NCBI RefSeq assembly: GCF_017908595.1
Contig: NZ_JAGKTL010000005.1
Span: 1-64,000, forward strand
From: Rhodothermus bifroesti
Lineage (GTDB): Bacteria; Bacteroidota; Rhodothermia; Rhodothermales; Rhodothermaceae
Direction of reading: 5' to 3'
DNA length: 64,000 nt
Made by a program: the position numbers and the translations under genes
Part shown: positions 57,852 to 60,237 of the stretch, one piece after another
Numbering within the stretch: the stretch's first letter is position 1
Layout of the letters: each line of letters starts with the position of its first letter
Notes under the pieces: generated by a model
Told to the model about the DNA's origin: nothing
Seen by the model: only the letters and a program-made list of their open reading frames with translations
The model's database searches: none

Positions 57852-58141
57852 TTCAACAAATTTGTGAAAAAAAAACAAAGAAACTATCTTTTTGCCTTTT
57901 GAAAGTCAATTCTTTGTGTTTCCTTTATTTTAATATAAAAGCGCATCCATAGGTAAAAAATTTTTTGATATACCTCTTTTTTAATTTCTTTTTTTATACA
58001 AGAAGCGCTACCATTCCTGTTTATCTAGGTCGATCTTCTTGTTTTTGCGAGATAAAGGGTGAATTGATCTCAGGGGCAAAAATTGCGTAATTAGGCGCTA
58101 CCATTGCATTCACGAGAGACGAGCTCACCTTGGAGTATTCC
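57852..58141. other. AT-rich 290-bp leader region upstream of the ilv-leu operon
   Basis: No coding gene is supported before the small ORF at 58142. The DNA is markedly AT-rich from about 57860 to 58010, in contrast to its surroundings, as expected for a promoter region. An 11-base word, GCGCTACCATT, occurs twice 90 bp apart (58005-58015 and 58095-58105). A promoter candidate lies at 57861-57892. Confidence 0.6.
57861..57892 (+). promoter_or_regulatory. Candidate Bacteroidota-type promoter for the ilv-leu operon
   Basis: TTTG at 57861-57864 and TATCTTTT at 57885-57892 (seven of eight matches to TAnnTTTG) are separated by 20 bases, close to the usual 19-21 bp. This implies a leader of about 540 nt before ilvB. 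An alternative is a later AT-rich start site near 57925-57980. Confidence 0.35.
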
Positions 58142-58330
58142 ATGATGGATAGCAGACGTCTTAAAACAACGTGGCAAGCTGCTGTGGGCAGTGGGCGGGG
58201 CGTGACGTCTGCTCCACATCCCGATCGTATAGGGATGACCGCACGGGCAAGCTGGGTAGCTAGGGTCAGCAACCTTCGACTTTGGGGGCTGGCACTGCTG
58301 CTTATTGGCCTGCTCGTAATTATTGCTTAG
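58142..58330 (+). CDS. Candidate Leu/Ile/Val-rich leader ORF (62 residues)
   Basis: ATG 58142 has a good Shine-Dalgarno (GGAG at 58132-58135, 6-nt spacing). The last 18 residues before the TAG (58328-58330) are LRLWGLALLLIGLLVIIA: seven Leu, three Ile and one Val. From an internal ATG at 58235, 14 of 31 residues are branched-chain. It lies directly upstream of ilvB with 113 bp between, the place of a classical leader peptide for BCAA control. It could equally be a small tail-anchored membrane protein. A full 62-codon leader is long; the shorter 31-residue form is leader-like. Homology is unknown. Confidence 0.55.
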   Translation: MMDSRRLKTTWQAAVGSGRGVTSAPHPDRIGMTARASWVARVSNLRLWGLALLLIGLLVIIA

Positions 58331-58339
58331 CTGCGCGGC

Positions 58340-58438
58340 GGTCAATCCCTTGGCACTTCACAGGCGCGATGAACCGATGAGCTTGAGGCCGGGGGATTGA
58401 CCCCGAAAGCCAACAACACAAAACATAAGCCTGTGAGG
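58340..58438 (+). promoter_or_regulatory. Putative ilvB leader RNA: 15-bp stem with loop complementary to the ilvB ribosome-binding region
   Basis: Stem A: 58340-58354 pairs with 58388-58402 (15 pairs, two G-U), enclosing a 33-nt loop. Loop bases 58356-58365 (CTTCACAGGC) pair with 58429-58438 (GCCTGTGAGG; 10 pairs, one G-U), which contains the GAGG Shine-Dalgarno 6 bases before the ilvB ATG at 58444. The two helices could form a pseudoknot, or exclude each other. There is no T tract, so translational control is more likely than an intrinsic terminator. It begins 9 bases after the leader-ORF stop codon, within the footprint of a terminating ribosome. Confidence 0.6.
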
Positions 58439-58443
58439 TAGCC

Positions 58444-60237
58444 ATGCGCACCGACACCATTCCGCTGGTCCGATCGGCCCGTCCGGCATCGGGCACCGAG
58501 GAAACCGCAACAGTCACGTCTGCAGCGCCTGTTTCTGGGGCAGAAATTTTTGTGCGTGCTTTGGAAGCTGAGGGCGTGGAGATTGTCTTCGGGCATCCAG
58601 GGGGCGCTGTCATCCATATTTACGATGAAATCGCTCGTCTTAAGCCGCGTTTTCAACATGTACTCGTGCGCCATGAGCAAGGGGGTACGCACATGGCCGA
58701 GGGCTATGCCAAGGCCACAGGCCGTGTGGGGACAGTACTGGTGACCAGCGGACCCGGCGCAACCAATACCGTTACGGGCATTGCCGATGCATACATGGAT
58801 TCAGTGCCCATTGTGGTGTTTACGGGACAGGTGCCTACCAAACTGATCGGTAACGATGCCTTTCAGGAAACCGACACCATCGGCATTACGCGCTCTATTA
58901 CTAAGCACAGTTTTTTGGTGCGTGACGTACGTGATTTAGCCTGGACGATCAAAGCAGCCTATCATATTGCCCGAACTGGTCGGCCTGGACCCGTTGTGGT
59001 CGATCTGCCAAAGGACATCTTGCTGGCTAAAGCGCCGTTTAGCTATCCCGAAGAAGTGCATCTGCGGGGCTATCGCCTGCCTGGATCGCCTGACGCGACG
59101 CTGATCCGCGAAGCAGCGGCAATGATTGCGGCCTCTCGGCGCCCGTTGCTCTATGTGGGTGGAGGGGTGATTACCGCCAATGCAGCCGAATTGCTAACCC
59201 AGCTAGCCCGTAAGGCCCGCATTCCGGTTACTACCACGCTGCACGGCTTAGGTGCTTTTCCGGAAGATGATCCCCTAGCGCTGGGCATGTTGGGAATGCA
59301 TGGTACCTGGTATGCCAACCAAGCCGTGCAGCATGCTGACCTAATCATTGCGGTGGGGGCACGTTTTGATGATCGGGTAACGGGCAAGCTCGATAGCTGG
59401 GCACCCTATGCCAAGATCATTCATATTGACATCGATCCCTCTTGCATTTCCAAAAACGTACCTGCCGATTGCGCCATTGTGGGTGATGTGCGGGAGGTAT
59501 TGGAGCAGCTGTTGCCTCTAGTAGAACCTAAGGATACCAAAGAATGGCTGGCTAAGATTGAAACCTGGCGTGCTGAATGCCCGCTTACCTATGAGCAGGG
59601 CGATGGTAAGCTGCGGGCGCAGTACGTCATCGAACGTCTGCGGGCCAAAACTGGTGGCCATGCCGTAGTTGTTTCCGACGTAGGCCAGCATCAAATGTGG
59701 ACAGCCCAGTACTTCCGCTTTTTGCATCCACGCTCGCACATTACTTCAGGTGGACTGGGTACGATGGGCTTTGCCTTGCCGGCTTCTATTGGTGCAGCTT
59801 TTGGCCTGCGCGGTCGCAAGGACGTGCCTGTCCTCTGCATCAGCGGTGATGGAGGCTTTGTCATGAATGCCCAAGAGCTAGGCGTAGCCGCAGCCCATCG
59901 ACTGCCGATCAAAGTGGCTGTGATCAACAACAATTTTCTCGGCATGGTGCGGCAGTGGCAAGAGCTGTTTCACGAAAACCGGTTCAGCCACACCGACCTC
60001 AGCGATACCAATCCGGATTTTGTTAAGCTGGCCGAAGCCTATCACTGCGTGGGCCTGCGCGCCACGCGTCCAGAAGAAGTCGACACTGTGCTCGAAGAAG
60101 CCTGGAAAGTGACCGATCGGCCGGTGGTGATAGACTTCCAGGTCGTCAAGGAGGAACTCGTGTTCCCCATGGTGCCGGCCGGCGCTTCGACCAGCGAAAT
60201 GATTACGAAACGTATGACGCCTAACGCATTCGTCTGA
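58444..60237 (+). CDS. ilvB: Acetolactate synthase large (catalytic) subunit
   Basis: Thiamine-diphosphate enzyme that joins two pyruvates, or pyruvate and 2-ketobutyrate, at the head of Val/Leu/Ile synthesis. The N-terminal Pyr domain has the catalytic Glu in VRHEQGGTHMAEGYAKATGR near 75, FTGQVPTKLIGNDAFQETDT near 128, and the C-terminal ThDP motif GDGGFVMNAQELGVAAAHRL then NNNFLGMVRQWQELF near 496. Length 597 is normal. ATG 58444 follows TGAGGTAGCC (GAGG Shine-Dalgarno) and lies downstream of the leader RNA; the small subunit gene follows by 7 bp. Confidence 0.95.
   Translation: MRTDTIPLVRSARPASGTEETATVTSAAPVSGAEIFVRALEAEGVEIVFGHPGGAVIHIYDEIARLKPRFQHVLVRHEQGGTHMAEGYAKATGRVGTVLVTSGPGATNTVTGIADAYMDSVPIVVFTGQVPTKLIGNDAFQETDTIGITRSITKHSFLVRDVRDLAWTIKAAYHIARTGRPGPVVVDLPKDILLAKAPFSYPEEVHLRGYRLPGSPDATLIREAAAMIAASRRPLLYVGGGVITANAAELLTQLARKARIPVTTTLHGLGAFPEDDPLALGMLGMHGTWYANQAVQHADLIIAVGARFDDRVTGKLDSWAPYAKIIHIDIDPSCISKNVPADCAIVGDVREVLEQLLPLVEPKDTKEWLAKIETWRAECPLTYEQGDGKLRAQYVIERLRAKTGGHAVVVSDVGQHQMWTAQYFRFLHPRSHITSGGLGTMGFALPASIGAAFGLRGRKDVPVLCISGDGGFVMNAQELGVAAAHRLPIKVAVINNNFLGMVRQWQELFHENRFSHTDLSDTNPDFVKLAEAYHCVGLRATRPEEVDTVLEEAWKVTDRPVVIDFQVVKEELVFPMVPAGASTSEMITKRMTPNAFV

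Follow-up and report, generated by a model that had tools for sequence, protein, structure and literature searches.

A candidate branched-chain amino acid leader-peptide switch at the translation start of ilvB in Rhodothermus and its relatives

The ilvB leader of Rhodothermus bifroesti

In the 64,000-nucleotide stretch of Rhodothermus bifroesti DNA analysed here (hereafter the window), ilvB is preceded by an RNA leader that is rather likely to be a branched-chain amino acid (BCAA)-sensing leader-peptide attenuator with translation initiation as its output, in which three helices, 2:3, 3:4 and loop:start, compete with each other. Whether the first enzyme gene has its start hidden or exposed probably depends on the ribosome reading an ORF rich in Ile, Leu and Val (I/L/V) codons. 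Most of what is known of amino-acid attenuation concerns the control of transcription in Proteobacteria and Actinobacteria. In the ilvB leader, the place of the terminator is taken by a helix over the Shine-Dalgarno (SD) sequence and the start codon, and the layout is kept in several lineages with most of its letters changed. This would offer a natural test of how attenuators shift from one kind of output to the other, transcriptional or translational. It also provides an annotation for the region controlling a key pathway in bacteria that serve as thermophilic and halophilic models.

Read from 5' to 3', the locus consists of a kinase gene, promoter-like hexamers, the leader ORF, the stem, and the ilvB SD and start codon (Table 1). 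The leader ORF ends with WGLALLLIGLLVIIA-TAG, and 9 nt after its stop begins a stem in which positions 58340-58354 pair with 58388-58402 (15 pairs including G-U). The ORF with its I/L/V-rich end and the stem are all found where a preliminary description of the window had placed them. As read from the sequences of the window and its relatives, the anatomy is a conserved one, made up of an ORF with an I/L/V run, a near-fixed distance from stop to stem, the helices 3:4, 2:3 and loop:start, and no terminator.

Table 1. Features of the ilvB leader region, in coordinates of the window
Feature	Positions	Strand	Remarks
Palindromic GAAGCGCTACC motif, candidate operator	58002-58019	+	
Promoter-like hexamers, -35 TTGATC, 18 nt, -10 TAATTA	58064-58093	+	
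Leader ORF, 62 codons, ATG ATG after GGAG	58142-58330	+	Ends LLLIGLLVIIA
Segment 1, CAUCCC, candidate pairing with 58232-58237 (CAUCCC/GGGAUG hairpin)	58217-58222	+	Read by eye, genus only
Segment 2, AGGGAUGACCGC, within leader ORF; forms protector 2:3 with segment 3	58231-58242	+	
Leu/Ile/Val codon run, presumed stall site	58298-58327	+	
Segment 3, GCGGUCAAUCCC, 5' stem arm, also pairing with segment 2	58338-58349	+	
Sequestor loop strand (anti-SD and anti-start)	58351-58371	+	
Segment 4, GCCGGGGGAUUGACC, 3' arm of the stem	58388-58402	+	
Shine-Dalgarno and start codon of ilvB, targeted by the loop strand	58424-58446	+	
ilvB	58444-60237	+	First gene of ilvB-ilvN-ilvC-leuB-leuA; basis Pfam

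Leader ORF

The end of the ORF and its I/L/V run are kept across the genus and the order. Order-wide, 31 of the 32 leaders examined have 6-13 I/L/V codons among their last 15, and the stem begins 5-10 nt after the stop in all 32 elements. Among the 2,265 stop codons of the window that have 15 open codons before them, four have at least nine I/L/V in the last 15, and only the stop of the leader ORF is then followed by a stem of more than 8 pairs. The last 41 codons of four genus members show 47, 20 and 53 differences at codon positions 1, 2 and 3, respectively, and the ratio of nonsynonymous to synonymous change of the ORF in the same four, scaled by opportunity, is about 0.44. Across the leaders, Leu is mostly encoded by CTT or CTC and Ile mostly by ATT, a choice that differs from that of the neighbouring genes.

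In one leader (L050, G085) the frame continues beyond the I/L/V run to a stop adjoining the stem, perhaps as the result of an insertion. Within the leader ORF of the genus (58155-58237; L002-L007), a pairing of GACGUCACC with GGUGACGUC was also seen, in which one U-A pair has changed to C-G.

Stem 3:4 and protector 2:3

In the order-wide alignment of the stem, 98.7% of the cells are paired and four pairs have both sides changed, and on four of five measures none of 500 shuffles scored as high. Comparison across relatives had been proposed as a check in the preliminary description, and it speaks for the element, the parts being conserved and the stem covarying. Covariation within the genus and within f13, where there are too few changes, was left out as evidence because the pairs vary too little there for it to be tested. 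The single-sequence folding energy of the window leader was not significant (z -1.24). Folding energy on its own is weak evidence; the strength of the case lies in the comparison between genomes.

The 5' arm of the stem has a further partner inside the ORF, segment 2, which the preliminary description had missed; with it, the stem becomes one arm in a three-way switch. The complementarity of segments 2 and 3 across lineages was equalled in none of 20,000 permutations, and in 9 of 20,000 when one sequence per lineage was used. Synonymous-codon shuffling weakens 2:3 with a combined z of -6.3, a value that is too large because the members of one family are not independent. The helix is unsupported in f14, f15 and L084, and weak in f5. 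Segment 2 lies upstream of the I/L/V run in Rhodothermales and inside the run in two Balneolaceae leaders, as in classical attenuators. Helices 2:3 and 3:4 share segment 3, and comparison supports both of them.

Proposed sequestration of the start site

The loop of the stem is complementary to the start region of ilvB: UGGCACUUCACAGGC (58351-58365) can form 15 pairs, with one bulge, with GCCUGUGAGGUAGCCA (58429-58444), reaching into the ilvB start codon, and three further pairs join AUG (58369-58371) to CAU (58424-58426). A complementarity of the loop to the SD had been noted earlier over 10 positions; it is present, and it is longer than that. The partner sequences are wholly different between lineages, and the leaders' own loop and start partners were compared with swapped ones, with none of 20,000 permutations being as good (2 of 20,000 with one sequence per lineage). 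Most lineages have 13-25 loop:start pairs (interior loops counted) in a loop of 26-45 nt, while the helix of L048 has 7 bp. The pairing is weak in Balneolaceae, L083 and L084 and is not claimed there. In Rhodothermus the loop is directed at the SD of ilvB, in f8, f11, f5 and f4 at the start of ilvB or ilvD, and in f13 at the start codon belonging to a second small ORF.

It could be argued that these are chance pairings around an ordinary small membrane protein, as the end of the ORF is hydrophobic and single-sequence folding is unremarkable. This is, however, extremely improbable, being contradicted by the cross-lineage permutation tests for loop:start and 2:3, by the covariation of the stem, and by the absence of a Pfam match for the ORF.

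An intrinsic terminator was sought in 57900-58600 and none was found, nor does a U-tract follow either helix on its 3' side. Together with the permutation support for loop:start, this agrees with the earlier suggestion of start-site sequestration and translational control without a terminator. The lack of an intrinsic terminator would also be compatible with a transcriptional output, in which hiding the start would leave the RNA untranslated, putative Rho termination would follow, and the switch would act via polarity. In f13 (Salinibacter-like), f14 and f7, the hidden start is indeed that of the second small ORF, and ilvB lies about 200-350 nt beyond it. Nevertheless, in Rhodothermus, f8, f5, f11 and f4 it is the start of ilvB or ilvD itself that is hidden, and we consider polarity a decidedly improbable explanation. 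As a separate observation, the Salinibacter-like leaders L051, L052, L056 and L058-L063 have, between the element and ilvB, the second small ORF (AUGCC...), whose end, in those that were read, lies close to the ilvB start or overlaps it, a placement that suggests coupling.

The preliminary description had joined the stem and the loop pairing into one pseudoknot. Both pairings are conserved, but a long loop:start helix in a short loop leaves little room for both at once, so they are likelier to be alternatives. If 3:4 and loop:SD did form together as an H-type pseudoknot, the ilvB start would be hidden (OFF) and the ribosome on the leader would break the stem to expose it. A reduced form can be built in the window from a 10-bp stem, 5 nt and an 11-bp loop:SD helix (58340-58349, 58355-58365), with 26 nt separating segment 4 from the SD strand, and the short helix of L048 would fit as well. 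On the other hand, the number of loop:start pairs usual in the other lineages could hardly be accommodated above a closed stem, opening of the stem by a ribosome that has reached the stop would switch the operon ON in plenty, which is the wrong sign, and the conserved 2:3 pairing would be left without a role. A joint pseudoknot therefore appears unlikely to us.

Proposed mechanism and fold models

Under the preferred reading, that of three competing helices, charged tRNAs would in times of plenty let the ribosome proceed to the stop codon. As the stop lies 5-10 nt from the stem, a ribosome there would overlie the border of segment 3 and should prevent 3:4 from forming, upon which the loop would pair with the start region and ilvB would be OFF. 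With Leu, Ile or Val in short supply, the ribosome would stall in the run and leave segment 3 free, and the stalled ribosome or a queue behind it would keep segment 2 away from segment 3. Helix 3:4 would then form before the start region is transcribed and hold the loop within the hairpin, and ilvB would be ON. From this arrangement we infer that the ribosome stalls, that 3:4 and loop:start exclude each other, and which sign the regulation has. The sign had been called unpredictable from sequence in the preliminary description, which does not wholly hold, since the anatomy would favour ON in starvation.

The folds were modelled with pseudoknots excluded. In a transcript ending before the start region, the mean predicted formation of 3:4 was 0.73 for the free RNA, 0.24 with a ribosome at the stop, and 0.94 with a stalled ribosome and a queue over the region of segment 2. 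With a ribosome at the stop, loop:start was predicted at 0.43-0.75 in all Rhodothermales modelled. Blocking the stem increased the predicted pairing of the ilvB SD and start to the loop, and when 3:4 was forced the start region was more exposed than in the state with the ribosome on the stop codon. Because pseudoknots cannot form in these models, it is an assumption of theirs, rather than a result, that 3:4 and loop:start exclude each other.

At equilibrium, 3:4 was predicted to lose to other pairings in four of five sequences of the genus, so the ON state would need kinetic control. In Rhodothermales, where segment 2 precedes the run, it would remain uncovered by a lone stalled ribosome, and in models of the full leader with a single stalled ribosome 2:3 mostly remained high, so that either a queue or kinetics would be needed. 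On the basis of the models, the element would work like a translational attenuator in which stalling frees the start.

Comparison with known regulatory leaders

Among translational attenuators, ermC responds to macrolides and the leader of B. subtilis rtpA (anti-TRAP) to uncharged tRNA-Trp. In these systems, as proposed here, where the ribosome stands on the leader ORF determines whether the SD of the following gene is exposed or hidden, and sequence complementarity in the ilvB leader points to the corresponding helix over the SD or start of the next gene. In contrast to ermC and rtpA, the leader described here would serve an entire BCAA operon and would use a relay of three helices.

Leader ORFs for BCAA that are combined with terminators have been described in the Corynebacterium ilvB-II uORF (PMC10272879) and in M. 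tuberculosis ilvB1 (PMC13236596). The ilv transcription attenuators of E. coli, Corynebacterium and M. tuberculosis share with the present element a BCAA-rich leader ORF, mutually exclusive structures, and a stop codon at a position from which a ribosome completing the ORF blocks the anti-structure. Their last element is an intrinsic terminator, while here the last helix would hide the SD and start and there is no terminator. In terms of the trp attenuator, helices 1:2, 2:3 and 3:4 would correspond to the protector 2:3, the anti-sequestor 3:4 and the sequestor loop:start.

The LEU element of actinobacterial leuA combines an ORF with a Leu run, a pseudoknot and pairing to the SD (PMC1262725). 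It resembles the Rhodothermus leader in its Leu-run leader ORF, the pairing with the SD of the structural gene and the lack of a terminator, and perhaps in its pseudoknot-capable RNA. It differs in that its base stem is formed by the run of Leu codons with the SD, whereas here the loop of a hairpin after the stop pairs with the SD and start. Furthermore, the LEU element precedes leuA, while here an ORF with an I/L/V run precedes ilvB or ilvD and a 2:3 helix is added. With regard to the pseudoknot of LEU, both helices are conserved here and are likely alternatives.

The ilvB-OMG and Leptospira ilvB motifs (PMC10272879, PMC8632094) are likewise RNAs before ilvB with a BCAA-rich uORF, but the Rhodothermus leader matches no Rfam model. 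No match was obtained with the Rfam covariance models, including those of the T-box, the ppGpp riboswitch and ilvB-OMG, at the gathering score, and at E up to 10 there were three chance-level matches to unrelated families, with nothing credible among them. A literature search with subscription papers mostly outside its range found no report of such elements in Rhodothermus, Salinibacter or Bacteroidetes.

A motif CAC(U/C/A)UC, or at least CAC, is kept near the 5' side of the loop in many lineages (e.g., 58354-58359). We looked for a pairing role for this CAC and found none, though it is kept while the loop partner changes. This could indicate a riboswitch or a protein-binding leader in which the ORF is incidental. 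Yet there is no Rfam match and no conserved unpaired core apart from CAC, and the conserved features are the I/L/V run and the spacing from stop to stem, which makes such a leader very unlikely.

Distribution among relatives

The promoter, the end of the ORF, the stem with its loop and the pairing to the SD are kept in all seven Rhodothermus genomes. With R1, a covariance model built on the stem, 36 of the 114 genomes of the order gave a match at E up to 0.1, the weakest of these matches not all being real. When 245 genomes of the class were scanned with a refined model (R2), no additional group emerged, and in a draw of 394 genomes of the phylum this model added only two weak matches. The 32 elements examined represent at least 12 Rhodothermales genera. 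There is one sense match per genome, and the R. bifroesti genome has a single locus and its antisense echo.

All sense matches examined follow an I/L/V-rich ORF end and, where the neighbourhood is clear, precede ilvB or ilvD. The proposed link of the leader ORF to the BCAA pathway is thereby upheld, the ORF having no Pfam match and going with ilvB or ilvD in relatives; a conserved membrane protein unlinked to ilvB, which the preliminary description had named as a counter-argument, is not what was found.

A direct search showed the same layout before ilvD, missed by the covariance model, in f4 and some f2 genomes; such leaders were not found by this search in f3, f12 and most f15 genomes. Similar leaders are also present in genomes of Balneolales and Calditrichota. 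Tentatively, and at somewhat less than even likelihood, we suggest a family of BCAA leader-peptide switches of translation initiation that spans Rhodothermales and extends to Balneolales, Calditrichota and related genomes, in which the start-site partners are different ones. In such a family, the order of protector, anti-sequestor and sequestor would be kept, and the letters of the sequestor would be replaced in each lineage while its logic is retained.

In L092, L096 and L087 (Balneolales), L084 (Caldithrix MAG) and L083 (Bacteroidetes MAG), ilvB or ilvD is preceded by an I/L/V-rich leader ORF and, after this ORF, a stem. Between the stem and the start, L083, L084, L092 and L096 have UAUAUCYG, which appears complementary to a GAUAU-like stretch of the ORF.

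Upstream signals

A strict promoter consensus scan of the window gave no match. At the place of the promoter-like hexamers, the other six Rhodothermus genomes have TTGACA-N17-TTAATT. A transcription start downstream of 58402 had been considered as an objection to the element and is not upheld, the promoter-like hexamers lying 5' of the ORF.

Farther upstream, a GGAAGCGCT(A/T)CC palindrome is found about 60 nt 5' of the -35 hexamer in most f1, f5, f7, f11 and f13 leaders. The exact 18-mer of the window (Table 1) occurs once in its own genome. The palindrome is a candidate operator for a regulator of the BCAA operon. A related GAAGCGCATCC was seen still farther upstream in Rhodothermus genomes and, near the ilv locus of a Bacteroidetes MAG, a SAM riboswitch (RF00162) lies on the minus strand (L094:1354-1541).
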